The notes beneath the pieces are model-generated. The model did not search any database, was not told the origin of the DNA, and saw only the letters and a list, made by a program, of their open reading frames with translations. Positions 1,096-12,063 of a stretch of DNA of 49,865 nucleotides are shown here, one piece after another; position 1 is the first letter of the stretch; every line of letters starts with the position of its first letter. A program made the translations under genes and the position numbers. This stretch comes from Oscillospiraceae bacterium (GTDB lineage Bacteria > Bacillota > Clostridia > Oscillospirales > Ruminococcaceae): assembly GCA_024684395.1 (NCBI GenBank), contig JAIKWY010000177.1, forward strand, positions 1 to 49,865, read 5' to 3'.

Positions 1096-2849
1096 GACTG
1101 ATCCCTCCTCATATATTGCGCAAGCGTCCCTGCATAACTGCCCGCACCGATATCCGCCGCATAGATCAGGATACTCGCACTGTCAGAAGCATTGATCTTA
1201 TAATCGTAATTGACATCTGCTGCAATTTCCTGCCCTTCTGTCAAACCGGATGCATTCCCGGCACCGATCTCCGCCGCAGCGATTAGAAGCAGTGCGGCAT
1301 CAGAGGCATTTACCGTATCATCTCCGTTCAGATCACCGAGCAGTCTGGACTTGGCAAGTTCTGTTTCATAGCTGCCATCGCCGTCAAGGTCTGTACTTGC
1401 AACGAGCAACCCGGATGTGTTCTCGCTGAAAAGAACAGACTTGGCATCGGTGGAGACGGATACAAGTGTCTTTTCGTCAAGATTCTTTGCGGTCAGGCTT
1501 GCCTCATGCAGATCATCCGCAGTCAAAAGATAGCCCTGTTCCGTCTTTTGTAGCGATGCTTGGGAGGCAGTACCGCTTGCCTGTACATCATACCACTGCG
1601 TGGGATAATGATCGTTCAGCACCATAGTCAGAGAATACTCCGCTGCTTCGCCGCTGATGGATACACATCCCGATGGATCATAGTTAATCTGGGAACCAGA
1701 TTGGCTGTCACACTGGAAAGCAAGATCCTTGTAATATACGCCGGAATGAAGCTGCTGGGGACTTTCCAACTTGATCGTATAGCAGGAATTTGCTGTATCA
1801 CTGACGAAATTCTGACGCACCTGCTCATCGCCATCCATATAGAACCACGGATGTTCCTTCAGAGATTTTTCGGAATCTAAAATCGTAACGCTATACGGCA
1901 AGGAAAGCTGATTGGTTGACACGACATCAGTCCAATCAGTTGATTCATAAGAAGAACCCGGAAGAATACCCTTATCATTGATAACATTGATGTCATCAAT
2001 CAGTCCAAGCAGATCACAATGATCCTGCGTTATTCCATAGTATGGTACTGTCCATTTTCCATCTTTTGTATTGTAATATAGATGCGATTCATCATAAAGC
2101 ATCTGATATTGTTCGGGAGTGATCTGCCCCAATGGAATACTGCAGTCGTATACAAGTATCCGTGCGTCATAAGTCTCTCCGTTGAATTCCCATGAACCAG
2201 ATTCAGTGCCATAAGCTACAACGGCATGGCCAAAGTACATATCCTTCACGATACCGTTATAGCACAAAAGGACAGGCTTACGATTTTTTCCATGCTCTGA
2301 TAAAAACGATAATTTTTGCTTTGTTGTCCAATCACAGGTCTTAATGCTCTCCTGGCGAACGGCATCCGTGCTTTGCAGCAACATATAATAGTAGATTATG
2401 GATTGTTCAAAAAGAGGCTCCGTATGTATGTTACCATGAAGCAAACGATCGAGTGAGTATAACCCGGCATTGCCATAATTCTTCCATGTTGAAGGAATAT
2501 TCATCTCTTCAATATGCTCAGCCGGATCCAGAATGTCGAAAGATGCGAGCATTGATGTTGCTGCAAATCCGTAGCATGCACCATGAAACTCATCCCATGA
2601 TAAAACCGGATCGATCAGATGGTATTCTACATGATTCAAGTTTTCCCCAATCGCTCTTTCGTGCTCCGGGAAGAGATTGTCTGTATATGATTCGTGAAAG
2701 TTGTCAGGTGAATTAGAAAATTTCCAGGCATCTCTGTTATATACAAAAGTGCCGTTATTTGCGGCGGAAACTGAAAGCCCCGAAATTTGTGATAGCAATA
2801 AAGTTAAACCAAATAATACCGAAGCAGAAATCCTTATAGTGCTTTTCAT
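1092..2849 (-). CDS. Secreted papain-like cysteine protease-like protein with C-terminal dockerin
   Basis: 585 residues. A signal peptide spans about residues 1-30 (ends SGLSVSAA). The N-terminal half carries a putative Cys-His-Asp triad: Cys92 in GACYGFAATS, His208 in FGHAVVAY and Asp235 in ILVYDCS. The middle region (about 300-500) is unrecognised and rich in beta-type sequence. Residues 505-585 form a two-repeat dockerin (GDLNGDDTVNASDA and ADVNYDYKINASDS, each followed by an ILIYAA-like helix), so the protein should dock onto a cohesin of an extracellular scaffold. The ribosome binding site AGGAGG lies just upstream of ATG 2849. It is coupled by ATGA overlap to a paralog downstream and follows the agrB-dockerin gene. 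Protease activity is inferred; the dockerin call is firm. Confidence 0.85.
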   Translation of the reverse strand: MKSTIRISASVLFGLTLLLSQISGLSVSAANNGTFVYNRDAWKFSNSPDNFHESYTDNLFPEHERAIGENLNHVEYHLIDPVLSWDEFHGACYGFAATSMLASFDILDPAEHIEEMNIPSTWKNYGNAGLYSLDRLLHGNIHTEPLFEQSIIYYYMLLQSTDAVRQESIKTCDWTTKQKLSFLSEHGKNRKPVLLCYNGIVKDMYFGHAVVAYGTESGSWEFNGETYDARILVYDCSIPLGQITPEQYQMLYDESHLYYNTKDGKWTVPYYGITQDHCDLLGLIDDINVINDKGILPGSSYESTDWTDVVSTNQLSLPYSVTILDSEKSLKEHPWFYMDGDEQVRQNFVSDTANSCYTIKLESPQQLHSGVYYKDLAFQCDSQSGSQINYDPSGCVSISGEAAEYSLTMVLNDHYPTQWYDVQASGTASQASLQKTEQGYLLTADDLHEASLTAKNLDEKTLVSVSTDAKSVLFSENTSGLLVASTDLDGDGSYETELAKSRLLGDLNGDDTVNASDAALLLIAAAEIGAGNASGLTEGQEIAADVNYDYKINASDSASILIYAADIGAGSYAGTLAQYMRRDQS

Positions 2850-2882
2850 TTCATTCCCTCCTGTTATTATTAATTAAGATAA

Positions 2883-2923
2883 CAAAGACAGGGTACAACT
2901 ATCATCTAATTGCACCCGTCCTT
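2883..2923 (-). terminator. Imperfect stem-loop between agrB-dockerin and protease genes
   Basis: On the minus strand a stem of about 15 pairs (CAAGGACGGGTGCAA against TTGTACCCTGTCTTTG, with one bulge and G-U pairs) is followed by TTTGTTATCTTAATT. It may partly terminate transcription between the agrB fusion and the dockerin proteases. The U-tract is weak, so read-through is likely. Confidence 0.4.
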
Positions 2924-2991
2924 GGTTAGTAAATTAGCTACCTCAGCGTAAATATATCAAATTACACTTAGTATTATCCCTTGCTTATAGT

Positions 2992-3906
2992 TTAGGAAAT
3001 CTGCATTCCCCTTACTACCTGATGAACACAGCCACTGTATGCAGCTTCGCCGAGTGGGCTGGCATTTACGATAGCGGAATACTCAAGGATCAAAGTTGCA
3101 TCGGTGCTGTTGATCCATCCACTCTGATTAGCATCAGGCTGTCCGTGGAAGGGAGCATTCGGGAAATATGTTGAAAAGTTTGGATCAGATACAGACATCT
3201 CATGACCAGGAACCGAATTACACATGATATTGATTTTAGCAGCATCAGAAGCATTTACTTCATTATCATTAGTAGCATCCCCAGTATAGTAACACAGATA
3301 CCAATGACCATTCTCATACAGGGTGAACGTATTAACGCCTACTGTTTCACCGCCATTCAGGCTACCAGAACCAGAAATCTGTACAGTTTCCTCGTTGACA
3401 TTTGTGATCTCAACGTCTGCACCGGAAGCACCCATGCCACCCTCAAGGAAGAAAGTAATTGCCATAGCAATAGAAATTATCCGATTTTTCTTTTCTTCTT
3501 CCTTTGTCATCGGTGCATTCAAATGTTCTACCGGTGCAAACAAAAGAATGATTATCATATAGAACAATTCTAATGCAACATGAATCTGTATGCAGTAAGA
3601 GTTTTTCAAAAGAATATATGATAGCAGTACTACCAAGAAACAAAGTAATAGTGTCACTTTACATTTGAAGTGGGTCTCTGCATGATAACCGCCTGTATAA
3701 AACCTGATAACGATGAACAAAAAATAGAACAGCACAGCCTCTTTCAAATAGCCTAAGATTAAACCTGCAAGGATGACCAAAGAGACCCCCACTCCTGTAG
3801 AAATGATAATTTCAAATCCATATTGACATACAGGAACCATCTCTTCATCGATTATTTGATCATGATATAAAAAATGAGCTATACGATGACTCAGAAATGA
3901 AATCAT
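2992..3906 (-). CDS. agrB: AgrB-type peptide-processing membrane protease fused to a dockerin region
   Basis: 304 residues from ATG 3906 (an in-frame GTG lies at 3915, but the spacing from CAGGGTG favours ATG). Residues 1-142 are AgrB: the GGYHAETHFKC motif gives the catalytic pair His75 and Cys82 at the family's seven-residue spacing, followed by hydrophobic segments and the conserved PVEHLNAPMTKEEEKKNR segment. AgrB normally continues with further membrane helices. Here, after one segment (IISIAMAITFF), the chain changes near residue 155 into a soluble region with two dockerin-like calcium loops: 209-230 (GDATNDNEVNASDA) and 256-280 (GQPDANQSGWINSTDA). Losing the last helix would place this tail outside the cell, where a dockerin acts. 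No agrD-like precursor gene was found beside it. It is transcribed from its own promoter with paired upstream repeats. The fusion is read directly from one uninterrupted frame; its role is unknown. Confidence 0.85.
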   Translation of the reverse strand: MISFLSHRIAHFLYHDQIIDEEMVPVCQYGFEIIISTGVGVSLVILAGLILGYLKEAVLFYFLFIVIRFYTGGYHAETHFKCKVTLLLCFLVVLLSYILLKNSYCIQIHVALELFYMIIILLFAPVEHLNAPMTKEEEKKNRIISIAMAITFFLEGGMGASGADVEITNVNEETVQISGSGSLNGGETVGVNTFTLYENGHWYLCYYTGDATNDNEVNASDAAKINIMCNSVPGHEMSVSDPNFSTYFPNAPFHGQPDANQSGWINSTDATLILEYSAIVNASPLGEAAYSGCVHQVVRGMQIS

Positions 3907-3923
3907 ATCTTTCACCCTGCTTC

Positions 3924-3992
3924 ATTATAGCTCATTCATTATTCTATTTCAAGATGTTTGGCACAACATGCATATTTTTGGCACGAAATGCA
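3924..3992 (-). promoter_or_regulatory. Promoter of agrB-dockerin with paired LytTR-type direct repeats
   Basis: On the minus strand: repeat 1 (TGCATTTCGTGCCAA, 3978-3992), repeat 2 (TGCATGTTGTGCCAA, 3958-3972) with a 20-bp period, 5 bp, -35 TTGAAA (3947-3952), 17-bp spacer, -10 TATAAT (3924-3929). Two direct repeats about two helical turns apart just upstream of -35 are the layout used by AgrA/LytTR regulators. The same layout recurs at 8997-9065. Confidence 0.75.
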
Positions 3993-3994
3993 CA

Positions 3995-5296
3995 TTAACG
4001 CACGATATCTCCTGTTGCAAGAGAGATATACGCATGAAATGTCTGGTCGATCTGTCTAAAATTAAGGATGCCGTTATACTTATCTACGATCTCACGTACT
4101 GTTCGTAATCCGTAGCCGTGCAGTAATTCTTCTTTTTTCGTGGTTTTCAAATCTGGATTTTCTTTGAGAACATCATTTTCTACTGTGTTACTAAGATCTA
4201 TGCAGTAATAACCCGCTTCCTTCCAGATTCGTAATGAAATTTCGGATTCGGAAGTGTTCTTCCTACACGCTTCTATCGCATTATCAAAAAGATTTGCCAG
4301 CAGAATACATACATCTATATCCTTCAGATTTTCCATTTCGCTAAAAATGACACAATGGACTTTGATTCCCATTTTATCAGCAGTTGTCATTTTAGAGTTG
4401 ATGATTGCCTCTAACGTTGTGTTCTTTGTATGTACAAACGGCGTAATAACGTCAATCTTCTCGGATATCAATGCTGCCAAGTAATCAGCGATCTCATCAC
4501 CTTGCTGCTTCTTCGACATGTGAAGTGCACCCACGAGGTAGTTTCTCATGTCATGGCGCAGATGAATTGTCTCTTCGTATTTTTCTCCAAGAGCGATAAT
4601 GTCATGTTCCTGCATTTCAATTTGCTGTTCCATGAGCGTGATTTTCTGCTTGCGTATATGGTTCTGATTGATTAAAACGATCAAGCTAAAATGAAATACA
4701 TTCAGGACAAGGACGCAGCCCAATATCAGAAGAAACGGTGTAAAATCGCTTCCAGCTTCGTATACCATCGTGCGAAGAATTGTGATAAGGCCAATAGAGA
4801 CCATAAAAGTACCGGACAGAAGCAAATATTCATAGCCCGAAAATTTCAAATGCCGATGCTTTTTTAGGAATGCAATACTGCCCAGTACTGTCGAGTAAAC
4901 AAGTTTTGCAAAAACTACTGTTATGACTCTTTTGATTCCATCTGCATGGACCAGTTCCTGATAACTTAGACCGAACAGTTTGCCTAACAAGCTGATCGTG
5001 CAGACATCTGTCAAGATAATCAACGAGGTTATCATAATAGATATTAGTAGTTGTTCTCCCAAACCGCCGCTATAAAAGATCCGGAGTATCAGGATCAGCA
5101 TAACAATCATAAGCGGAAGCGAGAAAGTTGGTGTAACGCTGAGAATGGTGACCGCTATATCAAAAGCGGCAAACATAACGAATGTACAAACGATTCTCAC
5201 GGCTGCCCTGAATTTTGCGTTTTGCAGAAAGTAGAAGAATAGGAATAGAATGATAATCAAAGACTCCAGCAGGCAGTAGCAGATTTCAGTTATCAT
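3995..5296 (-). CDS. agrC: AgrC-like HPK10 sensor histidine kinase
   Basis: 433 residues. The first about 210 form a hydrophobic sensor with six or so membrane segments. A coiled linker (about 213-245) follows, then an HPK10-type kinase core: H-box LRHDMRNYL with His248, N-box NLFDNAIEAC (Asn335/Asn339) and G-box HGYGLRTV (396-403). This is the GHKL/AgrC layout that senses a peptide pheromone and phosphorylates a LytTR regulator. The start overlaps the end of the regulator gene by 11 bp, so both are one operon. The stop lies next to the operator repeats of the agrB promoter. Family is firm; the ligand is unknown because no AgrD precursor was seen. Confidence 0.9.
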   Translation of the reverse strand: MITEICYCLLESLIIILFLFFYFLQNAKFRAAVRIVCTFVMFAAFDIAVTILSVTPTFSLPLMIVMLILILRIFYSGGLGEQLLISIMITSLIILTDVCTISLLGKLFGLSYQELVHADGIKRVITVVFAKLVYSTVLGSIAFLKKHRHLKFSGYEYLLLSGTFMVSIGLITILRTMVYEAGSDFTPFLLILGCVLVLNVFHFSLIVLINQNHIRKQKITLMEQQIEMQEHDIIALGEKYEETIHLRHDMRNYLVGALHMSKKQQGDEIADYLAALISEKIDVITPFVHTKNTTLEAIINSKMTTADKMGIKVHCVIFSEMENLKDIDVCILLANLFDNAIEACRKNTSESEISLRIWKEAGYYCIDLSNTVENDVLKENPDLKTTKKEELLHGYGLRTVREIVDKYNGILNFRQIDQTFHAYISLATGDIVR

Positions 5297-6014
5297 AAGT
5301 CCCTCCTGACATCAAAAGTTCTTGATATAACTGCTTAATCTCAGTGATTCTTCTTGGATTTATCGGGATTTTCTCCTGATTCTTCAATAAAATATGATTC
5401 CTGTTTATAACCTGTATATGTGTATAGTTTACAAGGAACGATTTGTGCGTTCGAAGGAAACCGCTTTGTGATAACTTGTTCTCATACATCAGTAAACTGG
5501 TGAGATCGCTGCGGTCTAAGGGTAAAATGCTGCCGTCAATCAAGTGAATATAGATAACATGCTTCATGGATTCAAAATATAAGATCTGACTTGCTGAAAT
5601 AGAACGACTGATAGAATTCACCTGAATTGATACTGAGTTCTCTTCATTCATGTACTTGCTTATGTACATTACAACAGCATCATGAATGTCCTGTTCAAGA
5701 CAGCGTTTCCTAACAAACCAAAGTGGAGAGAATGCAAATGAGCGATAAACGAGATGCTCTAACTGGGACATGAAGATGATAGTGATCTTATTATTGACAT
5801 AGACCATCTTTTGCGCTAACGCAAACCCATCAATTGAGGGCATGTCAATATCTAAAAACACTAACGAGATCTGTGATGCATCTTTGCTCTCCAGGAAAGC
5901 ATTGCCATCTTGAAAGTACTTAATTTCAATTGGCTCTTGAAATGCCTGCTTGATGAGAGGGGAAACAGTTTCTAGAACCATTGGCTCATCATCTATCACA
6001 GCTACTTGCATCAT
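5286..6014 (-). CDS. agrA: AgrA-like LytTR response regulator
   Basis: 242 residues. The receiver domain spans about residues 2-120, with the acidic pocket DDE at 8-10 and phospho-acceptor Asp55 in LVFLDIDMP. A LytTR DNA-binding domain spans about 135-235 (FLRTHKSFLVNYTHI, then IPINPRR). It should be phosphorylated by the downstream AgrC-like kinase and bind paired direct repeats. Two candidate targets with identical geometry lie at 3958-3992 and 8997-9030. The start is ATG 6014 (GAGGTG upstream). A strong promoter at 6045-6073 reads into it. The unusual FSPLWFVRKR stretch near the end of the receiver domain replaces the more common YIxKP. Confidence 0.9.
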   Translation of the reverse strand: MMQVAVIDDEPMVLETVSPLIKQAFQEPIEIKYFQDGNAFLESKDASQISLVFLDIDMPSIDGFALAQKMVYVNNKITIIFMSQLEHLVYRSFAFSPLWFVRKRCLEQDIHDAVVMYISKYMNEENSVSIQVNSISRSISASQILYFESMKHVIYIHLIDGSILPLDRSDLTSLLMYENKLSQSGFLRTHKSFLVNYTHIQVINRNHILLKNQEKIPINPRRITEIKQLYQELLMSGGTYDN

Positions 6015-6244: not shown

Positions 6245-7345
6245 TTATGCTGTCAACTGTAGCCGGTCAACATATTCCCGCTTAAGCTGCATGGAAGAAT
6301 GCACATATCTGTTCAGTGCAATGCTGGCATCCGCATGACCAAGCAGCTCGCTCAGCGTCTTGGCATCAAAACCATGCTCGACACAAACCGTCGCATAGGT
6401 GTGCCTGATAATATGAAAATTAACGATTCGCAAACCGCAGTCTTTGAGGATCCTGCGGAAGCGGTTCTGCATCGTTCTCGGCTCGACCGGCTTTGCCGTT
6501 CCGGTTATAAGGTATGTGTCCGAAAGGCCTTTGAGCTTCGAGAGGGTGACTGCAATAAATGATGGTATAGGAATCGTTCTGACGGAGCTTCTGCTTTTCG
6601 GTGAACCGATGATTACCTCCGAGGTACCGGAATGGTTCACTCGCTGTACTGTCCGATTTACTGAAATTATAAGATTTTCAAGATCTATATCCTCCCAGCG
6701 CAGGCCACAAAGCTCCCCGACACGCAATCCCGTGAACATACAAAGCAGAATCGCCGCATTGGTTCTGCTCAGATTTGCGAGTAAAAATCGGATCAGTCTG
6801 CTGCGCTCATCAGCATTCAACACCTCCAAGCGCTTATGCTCTGTTTTGGGCATCGTGAAATGGATCTCCCGAAAGCCGTATTCTCTTGCGGCATACACAG
6901 AGATGCTGCGGAAAACAGTCATAATATCCCGGACAGATTTTGCAGACAAGCCGCCCTTTCCGTTAAGCCGTCCGTTGTTCAGCTTTTGCCAGATGAAATC
7001 ATTGATGCGTGCAGCGGTTAGGTTTGTCATGAGAGCACCGCCCAGCGAGGGGAGCAGATGCTTGTTGACGATATTTTGATAGTTTGCATAGCTGGAAGGC
7101 TTTACACGCAGTTTTGCCATTAGAAGCCATTGCTCTGCAGCCTCCCGAAATGTCATTTTTGAAGCGGGCGCTGACTGCTTCTGTCCAATTGAATAGATAG
7201 CCGTCATCTTTTCCTTGACCTCTGAAAGTGTCCTTGCATAGACAGATTTATATCGGATTTTTCCATTATCATGATAACCGACTGGTACACGCCCTTCATA
7301 ACGGCCATCCTTACGCTTATAAATATTGTTTCCTCTTCTTGCCAT
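6245..7345 (-). CDS. Tyrosine recombinase (ICE integrase)
   Basis: 366 residues. An N-terminal arm-binding domain covers about 1-50 (GNNIYKRKDGRYEGRV), a core-binding SAM-like domain about 65-165, and the catalytic domain about 175-360. Catalytic residues are visible: Arg208 (TGLRVGELCGLRWEDID), Lys250, His311 and Arg314 (FHIIRHTYAT), His337 (LLGHAD) and nucleophile Tyr347 (NRYVH). Length and layout match integrases of Tn916/Tn1549-type elements, which excise and insert the element at att sites. The start is ATG 7345 after GGAGG. The gene lies downstream of the relaxase in the same direction. No small excisionase gene was recognised next to it. Confidence 0.92.
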   Translation of the reverse strand: MARRGNNIYKRKDGRYEGRVPVGYHDNGKIRYKSVYARTLSEVKEKMTAIYSIGQKQSAPASKMTFREAAEQWLLMAKLRVKPSSYANYQNIVNKHLLPSLGGALMTNLTAARINDFIWQKLNNGRLNGKGGLSAKSVRDIMTVFRSISVYAAREYGFREIHFTMPKTEHKRLEVLNADERSRLIRFLLANLSRTNAAILLCMFTGLRVGELCGLRWEDIDLENLIISVNRTVQRVNHSGTSEVIIGSPKSRSSVRTIPIPSFIAVTLSKLKGLSDTYLITGTAKPVEPRTMQNRFRRILKDCGLRIVNFHIIRHTYATVCVEHGFDAKTLSELLGHADASIALNRYVHSSMQLKREYVDRLQLTA

Positions 7346-7580: not shown

Positions 7581-8870
7581 TTATTGTGTCTGTGTCTGTT
7601 CCTGTGCTTGCTCCTCTTTGATCCCAAGTTCTCGCATTTTTCTGCGGATGGCTCTGCGGAGCTTGCTGTCTGCATGGGGCTGTATGGAACGTTGATTTCG
7701 GTCATAGCTTGCTTCGATCAGCCTTGCAGTGTCGAATAACAGCGTCATAATGGTTGTATTTGCTGATGCCATCTGCGCACTGACATGCATCGTTATTTCC
7801 GGCGGATCCACGCTATCGGACGTTTCTGCAATCAATTCTGGTTTATCATCCGGTATTGTCTTAGCATTATCCGGTTCTTGCTGTATCGCCGGTGTATCAA
7901 CAGGCTCTGGCTGCTGCGTACTCTGCATATCACCAACTGTCCTGATGATCTGATTCTTCACTGACTTAAACGCCAGATTATCCTGCATTTCAGGAAATTG
8001 CACTTTTGCGGAAGAGTACATATCATGCTTTGCCTGCTCCATTTCGCACCACAGCGAGTACATCTCCCGGATATGCGGCTCCTGTGCAATCTTCGCAAAG
8101 ATGGCATCCACTGTCTGTTTGAACTCCGGTTTGAGATACCCATAGATCTTTTTCCCCTTTGCAGACTGCAACTGTCGGTTTAGCAGCAGGATGAGCTGCA
8201 TCAGTTCTTCATCCTCGATGCTGGTGTATCGAAGCTCCTCCGCAAGCTGCCGCATCAGTTCCCCGGAATCTTTCTTCAGTGTGTCCCGGACATCGGTCTG
8301 CTGCTCGTAAAGATGGTGAAGCTCGTCTGAATAAATATCATTTGCGAATCCGCTCCGGATTTTCTCTATGCCTTGCTCAGTCAGAAACCCCTCCTTCGGA
8401 TCGGTTGAATACACTACAATATGCACATGCGGGTTTTTCTTCTTGTCGTGAAATGCCGCATACCAACGCAAATGAGCGAGGTCTATCTTCATGTGCTTTG
8501 CGATGTTTGGCATCTGTCGCTGAACAAGTTCCTGCCATGCAGAAAGCGTATCATAGCCCATCTGCTGCGCATCTTCACGGCGCAGTGACACAACGTGCGC
8601 CCACACATTACCAGGATGATTGGAAATCTCATTCGCTACTGCGTTCAGGTCGATGGGAGCATCGGTCTGCGAAAACAGACCATGCTGCTCCAGCTTTACC
8701 GCACCGGGACGGGTGGCAATATAGCTGACAAGCTTTTCTCTTGTTAGTTCATTAGGATCCTGCTTCGGCATTACCACTCCCGGGCGTGTGGCGATGTACT
8801 TCACAAAATTGGAGAGTTTTTTCTTAGAGCCGCATTTCAGATAACGGCATGTGACGATAATTTTGGGCAT
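7581..8870 (-). CDS. MobP3-family relaxase
   Basis: 429 residues. The N-terminus holds two copies of the segment KYIATRPGV / SYIATRPGA (Tyr25 and Tyr50); a tyrosine in this segment is a candidate nucleophile. The metal-binding triad is visible in FHDKKKNPHVHIVVYS (His141, His148, His150). This pattern is typical of MobP3 relaxases of clostridial ICEs, which nick oriT and pilot the strand into the recipient. The C-terminal third is charged and glutamine-rich and probably contacts the type IV machinery. The ATG at 8870 has GGAGCC-like sequence upstream. In related elements the relaxase sits next to the accessory protein, but here 3.3 kb of opposite-strand dockerin genes separate it from the relaxosome gene at 12135-12530. 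Confidence 0.85.
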   Translation of the reverse strand: MPKIIVTCRYLKCGSKKKLSNFVKYIATRPGVVMPKQDPNELTREKLVSYIATRPGAVKLEQHGLFSQTDAPIDLNAVANEISNHPGNVWAHVVSLRREDAQQMGYDTLSAWQELVQRQMPNIAKHMKIDLAHLRWYAAFHDKKKNPHVHIVVYSTDPKEGFLTEQGIEKIRSGFANDIYSDELHHLYEQQTDVRDTLKKDSGELMRQLAEELRYTSIEDEELMQLILLLNRQLQSAKGKKIYGYLKPEFKQTVDAIFAKIAQEPHIREMYSLWCEMEQAKHDMYSSAKVQFPEMQDNLAFKSVKNQIIRTVGDMQSTQQPEPVDTPAIQQEPDNAKTIPDDKPELIAETSDSVDPPEITMHVSAQMASANTTIMTLLFDTARLIEASYDRNQRSIQPHADSKLRRAIRRKMRELGIKEEQAQEQTQTQ

Positions 8871-8996
8871 AATGGCTCCTTTGTAGCTATATTATTGTTA
8901 TACTTCAATTCGGTAAAGAATAATGATAAGAATAAAAGCTATGGATTTGGATTAAAAGTAGACATCAAGTTTGTGCTGCTTTCTCATGAGAGGAAC

Positions 8997-9065
8997 GTAT
9001 TTTGTGCCAAAAACATGTATTTCGTGCCAAGCCTATTGACAGTCATTATTATAAAGGGGTATAAT
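8997..9065 (+). promoter_or_regulatory. Promoter with paired repeats matching the agrB promoter
   Basis: Repeat 1 GTATTTTGTGCCAA (8997-9010), repeat 2 GTATTTCGTGCCAA (9017-9030), 20-bp period, 5 bp, TTGACA (9036-9041), 18-bp spacer, TATAAT (9060-9065). Repeats, period and distance to -35 are the same as at 3924-3992, so the AgrA-like regulator is the likely activator. It reads toward the decayed gene and the dockerin protease. Confidence 0.75.
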
Positions 9066-9071
9066 ATACTA

Positions 9072-9431
9072 AAATAGAAATGATGATCACATAGCATTCA
9101 ATGTGTTCAGAATAAGTTAGAGAGTTGATAATGTAGTAGTAATTTGTTATTACCAAATCATCCGATCCCAAAGAGGGCAAACGACAGGTATATAATTCAT
9201 TTTCCTACTGACTAATCTCAGGATTACTATTCCTAAGAAAATTTTAATCTGATACAAAATCTCAGCACACTATGGTAAAATTCGTTAAATAGCTTTAAGC
9301 ATGCACTATGAAATCAATGAGCTTGTATTATAACTTATAGAAAGTCTCATCATCAAAAACGGATTTCAATTACTCTGAGTTAATTGAGATTTTATACAAG
9401 GCGAAGGGAGCGTTTATTATGTAATATGTAG
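9072..9431 (+). ncRNA. Long AT-rich leader or RNAIII-like transcript
   Basis: About 360 nt downstream of the putative AgrA-type promoter. Only very short frames occur and none has a good ribosome binding site, until GAAGGGAG precedes an ATG at 9419 that is followed at once by TAA. It may be an untranslated leader of the protease operon, a regulatory RNA in the style of RNAIII, or the remains of deleted genes. Confidence 0.3.
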
Positions 9432-9764
9432 TCTGTCATTCTATTTAGATCCGTAGCTGTTTCAAACAGCAATGGCCGGTTATATGTCCAGGGTGCAACC
9501 GAAAGTTCCGTAAACGCAGATACGATCGGCATCAAGGACATTGTAGTAGAACGCAGCAGCAATGGTTCAACAGGATGGACGGCAGTCGCCTATCCAAGCG
9601 ATTGTCTGAAAACGAACACAGACAGGTGCGAGATGGAAAAGCGGATCACAGTTTCGCACGGCTACTATTACCGCATCACTTGCAACCACTATGCATACAA
9701 ATCAGGATGGAGCCCGAACTCTCAGACCGAACCGAACACGTCTAATTCGGTATATATTAGTTGA
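9432..9764 (+). pseudogene. Decayed small secreted-protein gene (C-terminal part)
   Basis: An open frame of about 110 codons without a start codon. It reads coherently as protein (NGRLYVQGATESSVNADTIG, then VERSSNGSTGWTAVAYPSD, HGYYYRITCNHYAYKSGW, ending SNSVYIS). It resembles short exported beta-sandwich proteins of Firmicutes. Upstream, a ribosome binding site and ATG at 9419 run straight into TAA and then TAG, so the signal peptide region appears deleted or frameshifted. It lies between the quorum-regulated promoter and the dockerin protease. Family assignment (DUF6147-like) is tentative. Confidence 0.5.
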
Positions 9765-9902
9765 TCGAAAAGCTGTACCTGGCTCAGTTTCGGTATCACA
9801 TAGCCAAAAGGGGGATGATCAATATAATCATACATTTTCTCGTTTCTTATAAGCAGTTGTCATTGGATACCCGATTCTAATCAGTTACGTAAGGAGGAAA
9901 AT

Positions 9903-11149
9903 ATGATGAATGTATTAAAAAAGCACTGGGCTGCCTGGTTGCTACTGTGCTTGGGGTGAGCATTAGCATTCCTGCTGCGTTCACAGCAAATGCTGAGGAT
10001 AACAGCAGTGAACTGCGATATCACCCGTGTGATGTTAACCACGATGGGATTGTGAGCATCATAGACGCAATTTGCGTTAATTTCTACCTGAATGGTGATG
10101 AAGGTGCCCTCCACCCGGAATATCTTGATGCAAATGGAAACAACATCGTTGATGTTGCTGATTTTCAGAAGGTTATGGCTGCAATTGTTGAAGACAGCTA
10201 TTCATGGTCGTTTGTAGACATTACAGCTTCCGCAAGTATTTCAGAAGCATCAGATGTTTTTGCAGAAACACAGTCAATTGAAGATAGGACAGAATTATCA
10301 TTTGATCCTGACGATAGTTCAACATCCACAACCAGAGAGTATTACAGATTCCGCTCTACGCCTACCCCAACACTTTCTACATATACATTAACAACCACTC
10401 GGGATAGTAATTCTAAGGATTATTCATTGAACCGTTATGATTATTATACATCTGTTGGTCCAAGCGAAACGGGAATAGTGCGGCTTGTTAGAACATCTGG
10501 TAATATTACTCATAATTGTGGAACAGGGTTTATAATAGACGATCATCGCATTGTCACTAGTGGTCATTGTATATATGAGGATGAAAATGGCGATAAGTTA
10601 GCAACTGCAGATGAATTTTTATCGGATTTACAAATTCAAATGTGTGATTCTAATGGCGTATTAACCAATACAAAATATGATGTAAAGGAAATCCATGTTC
10701 CCAAGCTTTTTGTAACCAGCTATTGTTTTGATAAATATGATTATGCCTTACTAACAGTATCCACAACACTGCCTTCAAGTACTTATACACATTACTCTCT
10801 CGGAACACCTGTTAACATCACGAGTTATGGTTTTAAGGGGACTGATTTGTTTATATCCGGATTTCCAGGAGATGCCACGTCTTTGAATCGAGTGAATACG
10901 TCAAAGGGACATGGCACCAATTCGTCCACAAGCAAAATATTAAGCTATAACCACCATACTTCCGGTGGCTTTAGTGGATCGCCCGTATACGTTGCGACAA
11001 AATACAAAATCGGAAGTGATCCATGGGTCAATATTTACACGGCAATCGCTGTGAATCAGCGCGGAAATACAAATAGCGGATCAGGACCGTTAATAGATGA
11101 TAACGCTTTAACTTTCTTTAAGCAGGATTCCACAAATGTAGGCTATTAA
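9903..11149 (+). CDS. Secreted V8/trypsin-like serine protease with dockerin repeats; signal peptide split by -1 frameshift
   Basis: AAGGAGG (9891-9897) precedes ATG 9903, but that frame stops at 9957. The slippery heptamer A AAA AAG (9917-9923) would move ribosomes into the -1 frame, giving MMNVLKK joined to ALGCLVATVLGVSISIPAA, a normal signal peptide, and then the 400-codon main frame. Numbering from GTG 9947, residues 27-50 (CDVNHDGIVSIIDA) and 60-82 (DANGNNIVDVADF) form a dockerin. The protease domain (about 172-395) has His207 (VTSGHC), Asp265 (KYDYALL) and Ser343 (GGFSGSPV), as in glutamyl endopeptidases. The next gene overlaps its stop. Either frameshifting, homopolymer phase variation, or a sequencing error must explain the start. 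Confidence 0.8.
9917..9923 (+). promoter_or_regulatory. Candidate -1 frameshift site A AAA AAG
   Basis: Zero-frame codons AAA AAG preceded by A form the heptamer used in E. coli dnaX frameshifting. Slippage here restores the frame of the protease signal peptide. One extra A in this run of six would equally fuse the frames, so a phase-variable tract or a sequencing error are alternatives. Confidence 0.45.
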
Positions 11150-11187
11150 TGATATTCGATGATCTAATTCTAATGGGAGATGTTATT

Positions 11188-12063
11188 ATGAAACGTTTTA
11201 AAACGATACTTTTGTCCCTTGTGCTGTCCATCAGCATGCTGCCCTGCGGTATGCTGGTATCTGCTGAGGACGAGTTGCCGGTTTACCGGTATGTTGTACT
11301 GAAAAAGATCAATGAAGACATCGAGGACAGGGATATTGTCGTTACACTACTTAAGATCGGCGAGAACACCACCCGTTCCTTTTATAAGGGTGAGCAAGGA
11401 ATTATGTTCGATACTTACAAGATTTTAGAATCTGGTGGTTCTGATGCATTGATCGACAGCTTGTGTCAGTCAGCAGAATATGGTGATATTCTGGAATATC
11501 ATGGAAGAAACCTTACGTGGACAACCGGAACTCAATATAACGACTTGAGGAGAATGGACAGTGACGGGACGGATTCCTTTGAAAAGGTAGGCTCGCTCTT
11601 TGATGCTCCGACCGAGGATGCAAAGATCAGGAACGTAGACGGTGAATCTGTGATCGAGGTAACTTCCGCAGAGGGCGACACATATCTGATCTATTCTGGC
11701 GAGCCAGGAATTTTCTTGGTTGATGTGAAACTATATGAGAGCTCACCTGAGACTGGAGATCCCCCGGAGGTGTTTGGCGATTTCAATGAAGACAACGTTG
11801 TTAATGCAAGTGATGCAACAATTATTTTGATCTATGCTGCAGAACAGGGTGCAAAAAACCAGACAGACAATTCGAGAACGGATAGTATGCTTACTCCAAT
11901 TGCTCAGGCTGAAGAATCTCAGACAAAAACCGTAGAGGTCAATGGTGACTTTAACAAGGACGGTGTCGTCAATGCCAGTGATGCAGCGACCATCCTAATT
12001 TACTCCGCACAATATGGTAGCGGAACGTTCTCCGGTACTTTTGAAGAATACGTTAACAGATAA
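11188..12063 (+). CDS. Secreted dockerin protein with two dockerin half-repeats
   Basis: 291 residues from ATG 11188 (GGGAG eight bp upstream). An in-frame ATG at 11149 would put 13 polar residues before the signal peptide (MKRFKTILLSLVLSISMLPC, cleavage after VSA), so the later start is preferred. The central region (about 30-190) is unrecognised. Calcium-binding repeats lie at about 203-225 (GDFNEDNVVNASDATIILIY) and about 255-275 (GDFNKDGVVNASDAATILIY), separated by a 25-residue linker and ending SGTFEEYVNR, very like the tail of the papain-like protein at 1092-2849. It is co-transcribed with the serine protease. It could be an inhibitor, propeptide-like partner or substrate-binding protein; no enzyme motif is visible. 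Confidence 0.8.
   Translation: MKRFKTILLSLVLSISMLPCGMLVSAEDELPVYRYVVLKKINEDIEDRDIVVTLLKIGENTTRSFYKGEQGIMFDTYKILESGGSDALIDSLCQSAEYGDILEYHGRNLTWTTGTQYNDLRRMDSDGTDSFEKVGSLFDAPTEDAKIRNVDGESVIEVTSAEGDTYLIYSGEPGIFLVDVKLYESSPETGDPPEVFGDFNEDNVVNASDATIILIYAAEQGAKNQTDNSRTDSMLTPIAQAEESQTKTVEVNGDFNKDGVVNASDAATILIYSAQYGSGTFSGTFEEYVNR

Follow-up and report, generated by a model that had tools for sequence, protein, structure and literature searches.

The agr-type locus and its mobile-element setting

The window analysed here, that is, the whole stretch of 49,865 nucleotides, belongs, as contig C84, to a genome of 4.2 Mb in 225 contigs (G000) and carries an agr-type system together with several genes for secreted dockerin proteins. 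On the minus strand lie a response regulator with receiver and LytTR domains (5286-6014; Pfam Response_reg and LytTR, 53.9 bits), which is AgrA-like and is proposed below as the operator binder, an AgrC-like GHKL sensor kinase (3995-5296; Pfam HATPase_c_5) and an agrB gene (2992-3915, likely start ATG at 3906) that runs in frame into dockerin-like sequence. The locus thus does encode a LytTR regulator, as an earlier note on this DNA had stated; at the position of the conserved LytTR motif, given as FhRhHRS in PMC4227749, the regulator reads FLRTHKS. Downstream of agrB, also on the minus strand, are the gene of a secreted dockerin protein (1092-2849) and a second member of the same family (1-1095), which is cut by the end of the window and goes on in contig C142. 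In the product of 1092-2849 Pfam recognizes Dockerin_1 only, and conserved Cys, His and Asp residues are present; these three are invariant in 8 sequences of the family (as aligned in summary view). A structural model of such a protein is weak (mean pLDDT 64), and its best PDB matches include papain-like enzymes, none of them significant (E 0.19 and above). Since Pfam shows no protease domain in these proteins and the fold comparison is weak, they are named only cysteine-protease-like.

The plus-strand genes begin further to the right. A trypsin-like protease with a dockerin (9903-11149; Pfam Trypsin_2 and Dockerin_1) is followed by another secreted dockerin protein (11149-12063; Pfam Dockerin_1). 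The likely start of the protease gene, ATG at 9903, probably opens a signal peptide and is in a different frame from the protease itself, which is open from 9947; the change of frame falls close to a run of A and may be due to mutation, slippage or an assembly error, which look alike here. Upstream of this gene lies a remnant open frame without a start codon (9435-9764, plus strand), which has no Pfam match. An Rfam search of positions 8900-10000 was empty, and therefore an RNAIII-like RNA is not claimed here.

The agr locus is surrounded by conjugation genes. A tyrosine integrase (6245-7345, minus strand; Pfam Phage_integrase) and a MobL relaxase (7581-8870, minus strand; Pfam MobL) are accompanied, within 6245-40151, by a TraG-type ATPase, TrbL, a coupling protein, a Toprim protein and a 1793-residue SpaA-type protein, so that integrase, relaxase and type IV secretion genes are all found on the window's contig; judged by gene content, this region is a probable integrative and conjugative element. 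The G+C content of the agr genes is 39%, versus 52% in 12064-46000. A relative, L078, whose AgrB is 60% identical to that of the window, has its genes in the same order (MobL-like relaxase, integrase, regulator, kinase and agrB, followed by agrD), and the order regulator, kinase, agrB, agrD occurs in L079 and L080.

The agrB gene of the window differs from those of its relatives. In the full agrB-dockerin open frame, the AgrB match ends at about residue 157, and it covers profile positions 2-153 of 185, whereas the 10 other AgrB matches over the cut-off (in 4 genomes) end at positions 175-184. The motif GGYHAETHFKC, with its His and Cys, is retained. The dockerin match of the fusion (21.4 bits) falls just below the Pfam cut-off of 22.9, and the tail resembles the C-terminal part of dockerin proteins encoded after agrB in L043 (34% identity over 107 residues) and after agrD in L080 (31% over 91 residues). 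No AgrD-like open frame was found by eye at 2780-4010, and the AgrD profile TIGR04223 has no match on the window's contig; a search of the window's own genome with the AgrD of L078, which had no positive control, also returned no match. Elsewhere in the genome TIGR04223 yields one match over the cut-off, on contig C29, and three below it. The AgrD-like frame (C29:7294-7488; L188) lies at a contig end beside ABC-transporter genes, on a contig without an AgrB match, and the agrB-dockerin fusion is the sole AgrB match in the genome. The simplest history suggested by these sequences is that a deletion probably fused agrB to a downstream dockerin gene with the loss of agrD, and that the signal gene of the window is probably damaged. 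Because agrB is a truncated fusion and agrD is not beside it, quorum sensing may not be intact here; the regulator and its targets may persist while the self-made signal has been lost or altered.

Paired repeats at three promoters

Two promoters of the window are preceded by closely similar pairs of direct repeats. At the first (3958-3992, minus strand), the core GTGCCAA occurs at 3984-3978 and 3964-3958, with a period of 20 bp, and a 5-bp gap (3957-3953) separates the pair from the agrB-dockerin promoter (3924-3952), which by reading consists of the -35 element TTGAAA (3952-3947), a 17-bp spacer and the -10 element TATAAT (3929-3924). At the second (8997-9030, plus strand), the core occurs at 9004-9010 and 9024-9030 with the same period, and is followed, after a 5-bp gap (9031-9035), by promoter 2 (9036-9065), comprising TTGACA (9036-9041), an 18-bp spacer and TATAAT (9060-9065), a perfect consensus except for the spacer length. 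The geometry reported in the earlier note, namely paired GTGCCAA repeats with a 20-bp period ending 5 bp from -35 and followed by -35 and -10 elements, is therefore borne out at both promoters. The second was described there as a dockerin protease promoter, but the protease gene begins only about 0.84 kb downstream of the -10 element, with the remnant open frame between them. Likewise, the scan pattern proposed in that note, GTATTTYGTGCCAA-N6-GTATTTYGTGCCAA, matches the second site but not the first, which reads GCATTTCGTGCCAA-N6-GCATGTTGTGCCAA; this literal consensus was dropped because the second site alone matches it. No repeat pair is present in the 286 bp upstream of the regulator gene. 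The broad LytTR consensus is [TA][AC][CA]GTTN[AG][TG]. Compared by eye with this consensus, in the register of the repeat ACCGTTCAG of L100, the GTT is kept in the proximal half of the first site and is absent from the other halves.

The pair is rare. Six matches at no more than three mismatches are found in the window, two of them exact and the remaining four with three mismatches each, and shuffled sequence averages 4.6 matches at that level. A pattern search of the whole genome at no more than two mismatches returned 10 pairs: three are exact, the other seven have two mismatches each, and one-mismatch pairs are absent. Reversing the pattern as a control gave 11 matches in the same genome, none of them exact, and 0.026 exact pairs are expected in 4.2 Mb from base composition. 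The exact pair is absent from the 37 other genomes of the genus that were searched. Random occurrence across coding DNA, which the earlier note had named as an outcome that would speak against its proposal, is thus not what is observed: the genome holds three exact pairs, and the control pattern has no exact match.

The third exact pair (C142:1108-1134) lies within TACATTTCGTGCCAAAAATATGCATGTTGTGCCAA and continues with 5 bp, TTGCAG, 17 bp and TATAAT, so that the 20-bp period and the 5-bp gap to -35 are common to all three sites. The first 113 bases of C142 are the reverse complement of the first bases of the window, an overlap at the window's left end; contigs C84 and C142 therefore probably adjoin, and the third site is probably part of the same locus. 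The gene that follows it (C142:1364-3142) encodes a secreted-looking, cysteine-protease-like dockerin protein that is 34% identical over 534 residues to the product of 1092-2849. A core of 27 bases is identical in sites 1 and 3, and the stretch from -35 to -10 varies among the three sites while the repeat halves are alike. The candidate regulon that had been read from the sequence survives in that pairs of the same layout recur, but it comprises three genomic sites rather than two and its consensus is broader.

Elsewhere in the same genome, contig C55 (L173) encodes a LytTR regulator 33% identical to that of the window and a kinase, followed by two genes of the dockerin family whose identity to those of the window is 75% and 52%; agrB is absent there.

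Repeat pairs in related agr loci

An AgrB alignment led to 114 relatives, of which the best 80 loci of named genomes were used; one locus with too little upstream DNA was dropped, and the resulting 80 sequences comprised the window and 79 loci. In each, the best 12-base direct repeat with a period of 19-22 in the 160 bp upstream of agrB was compared with dinucleotide shuffles. A significant pair was found at p<=0.01 in 29 of the 80 sequences and at p<=0.05 in 37, and 43 missed the latter threshold; the 80 sequences are not all independent, because some of the genomes are close kin. Where a LytTR regulator is encoded upstream on the same strand, an anchored pair with at least 10/12 identity was present in 29 of 51 sequences (window included), against a shuffle expectation of 0.60 on average and 3 at most (200 rounds), which supports the reading of the pair as a LytTR operator. 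Such a pair was still present in 9 of the 29 sequences without a same-strand upstream regulator.

In these relatives the operator lies between the kinase gene and the agrB of the same locus. The letters of the repeats vary widely between species and the spacing varies little, and sorting by eye gave several operator alphabets at one geometry: GTGCCA(A/C), GGGGGA/C, AGGAAAA, TTTCCC and ACCAAACACG. The operators of L078, L079 and L080 belong to the same class as those of the window. Within a pair the halves are alike while the pair itself changes from species to species, as a protein that binds both halves would impose. Twelve promoters from 5 genomes align with no internal gap from the repeats to -35, two rows from the genome G214 being incomplete at the distal half. 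The layout at agrB is also found in L083 and L099, where neither relaxase nor integrase was seen in the fetched stretch.

Co-variation was considered as proof of LytTR binding and set aside. In Mantel tests on 42 sequences, operator similarity correlated positively with the similarity of the LytTR domain (r 0.38), the receiver domain (0.39) and AgrB (0.38); with such nearly equal values the DNA-binding domain is not singled out from the receiver or from AgrB. Also discarded was a search of 8 relatives for a pattern with AGGAA halves, which gave 36 sites versus 14 for the control and recovered only one agrB site, its distance to -35 having been mis-set.

Further copies of the operators were sought in the genomes of the relatives. 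In that of L079 (G101), a TGMCACA pair was found at 8 sites with at most one mismatch, 4 of them exact, versus 5 for the control. Five of the 8 have the full layout, and the sites on contigs C69, C155 and C327 were set aside on sequence alone. One G101 operator precedes agrB, a second the radical-SAM and Nif11 cluster of L168 (below), and a third a dockerin gene, after which comes a gene whose product is homologous to the cysteine-protease-like proteins of the window (24% identity, E 1.5e-14). A small open frame after the G101 operator on C91 has no detectable relationship to the remnant frame of the window that ends at 9764. The remaining two operators precede DNA in which no clear gene is seen, close to a tyrosine recombinase. 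The genomes of L078 (G100) and L080 (G102) contain the agrB site only, one each, the controls giving 0 and 3.

A related pattern, applied to 396 genomes of the family, returned 14 sites in 11 genomes (control 3), of which the four in G000 and G214 were inspected. In G214 agrB-agrD and the gene of a long secreted-looking protein are separated by two divergent operators. For a second operator subclass, searched in 6 genomes, 9 sites were found in 5 genomes (control 2): five at agrB, three with a promoter-like context elsewhere, and one, on contig C55 of G473, that lacks a promoter-like context and was put down to chance. Within the fetched loci, additional occurrences of the operator belonging to each locus came to 7, versus 0.9 expected; those of L079 and L114 coincide with the agrB operator, read from the opposite strand, and should probably not be counted separately.

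At L168 (G101 C187) the distance from the operator to the genes that follow, namely a radical-SAM/SPASM gene, one for a Nif11-type precursor-like product and a dockerin gene, is about 0.5 kb, and agr control of a RiPP-like cluster is possible there. At L169 and L170 (G101 C233 and C274) several hundred bases with no clear gene follow the operator; their leaders resemble each other and also that of L168, and could possibly be untranslated RNA or decayed genes. The divergent arrangement of G214 (L192, C1:235500-243500) has a layout like agr P2/P3 and is found near plasmid- or mobilisation-like genes; a regulator or kinase gene was not seen in this stretch.

Proposed regulation and alternative explanations

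Taken as a candidate operator of the window's agr-type system, the repeat pair would very probably serve its LytTR regulator in turning on agrB and the secreted dockerin genes. This LytTR-operator reading is preferred because exact pairs are rare, because a LytTR regulator and a GHKL kinase adjoin site 1, and because the layout recurs in relatives. The sensor kinase would activate the response regulator, two LytTR domains of which would bind the two half-sites, spaced by two turns of the helix on the same side of the DNA and just upstream of -35, and the bound regulator would help RNA polymerase to start. Switching on agrB would amount to self-amplification, as in agr and Fsr, and the same signal would switch on secreted dockerin proteins, including the trypsin-like protease and the cysteine-protease-like proteins. 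From the LytTR-type layout and the parallel with Fsr we infer positive control, and not repression, of agrB and of the dockerin proteins; binding by this regulator and the nature of the inducing signal are inferred too.

Several observations count against this reading. The near-perfect promoter 2 might need no activator, and the LytTR regulator of C55 could compete for the operators. To these are added the 43 of 80 sequences that miss p<=0.05, the 9 of 29 sequences that have a pair but no same-strand upstream regulator, the co-variation that did not single out the LytTR domain, and the restriction of the operator to agrB in G100 and G102. The C55 locus also raises the question of whether the sites, while being LytTR operators, are served mainly by another regulator, such as this paralogue, the window system being degenerate. 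That C55 combines a LytTR regulator and kinase with dockerin-family genes like those of the window, and that in the window agrB is truncated and agrD is missing from its side, would fit such a scheme; C55, however, has no exact or one-mismatch copy of the operator, and the relatives have theirs between kinase and agrB within a single locus, so we regard this arrangement as improbable.

Since the element has transfer genes of its own and the sites touch promoters, the pair could in principle be the repressor site of a mobile element, or belong to another transcription factor family unrelated to LytTR. The operator layout, however, follows agrB across species, also where no relaxase or integrase is seen (L083 and L099), which makes this a very unlikely explanation. 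Least credible, by a little, is that the likeness of the sites reflects a recent duplication of promoters without regulatory meaning: the shared 27-base core of sites 1 and 3 is what such an event would leave, yet the three sites vary from -35 to -10 but keep similar halves, and other species have the same layout with other letters in both halves.

Known systems offer partial models for the LytTR-operator reading, the nearest functional parallel being Fsr of Enterococcus faecalis. According to PMC5454873, FsrA sites lie before fsrB, gelE-sprE and ef1097, and fsrA is constitutive. The likeness is thus in LytTR regulator sites before an AgrB-family gene and secreted protease genes, and in a regulator gene without a repeat pair; unlike in Fsr, the targets of the window bear dockerins, the operator letters are different, agrB is a truncated fusion, and conjugation genes lie around it. 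In agr of Staphylococcus aureus two direct repeats bound by AgrA are likewise found immediately upstream of the promoters P2 and P3 (PMC4227749), whereas in the window the repeats end 5 bp before -35, the effector genes carry the operator themselves, and the Rfam search for an RNAIII-like RNA at 8900-10000 was empty. For LytTR systems such as HdrRM, BrsRM and their kin, PMC6193735 gives 9-bp repeats 11-13 bp apart and 4-11 bp upstream of -35, diverse letters with conserved spacing, autoregulation, and operon repeats that often diverge from the consensus. The repeat period and the distance to -35 match those of the window, but these are one-component regulators with a membrane inhibitor, unlike the kinase and response regulator found here. 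Carriage of agr genes on or near mobile elements has a precedent in phage phiCDHM1, which, according to PMC3901668, has agrD, agrB and agrC and no response regulator; in the window, by contrast, regulator and kinase genes adjoin those of the relaxase and integrase, and the operator is present at effector promoters.

On a wider scale, a tentative and rather doubtful generalization would be that many agr systems travel on mobile elements of gut Clostridia, with private operator alphabets at one geometry, each gathering a regulon of secreted effectors by the acquisition of operators, and that the window represents a late stage in which the signal gene has been cut while the regulator, operators and protease targets have been kept. 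If this were true, the cell could respond to a peptide from a neighbour while producing none itself, or the agr membrane protein would now bear a dockerin.

An agr/LytTR-type operator layout is known; unusual here are the dockerin cargo and the probably damaged signal gene. No agr regulon with dockerin targets in Ruminococcaceae was described in the titles and abstracts among the matches listed from the open-licence literature, and in PMC2721979 the string "agr" occurs nowhere but in the reference list and, in the acknowledgements, as part of the word "Agriculture". The repeat pair at agrB suggests a rule readable from sequence for agr regulons of mostly uncultured gut and rumen Clostridia, whereby copies of that pair are sought in the rest of the genome. 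The rule predicts signalling control of dockerin-bearing, possibly cellulosome-attached proteases and, in a relative, of a RiPP-like cluster. The diverse operator letters at near-constant spacing would also make these loci a natural set for following changes of LytTR specificity.
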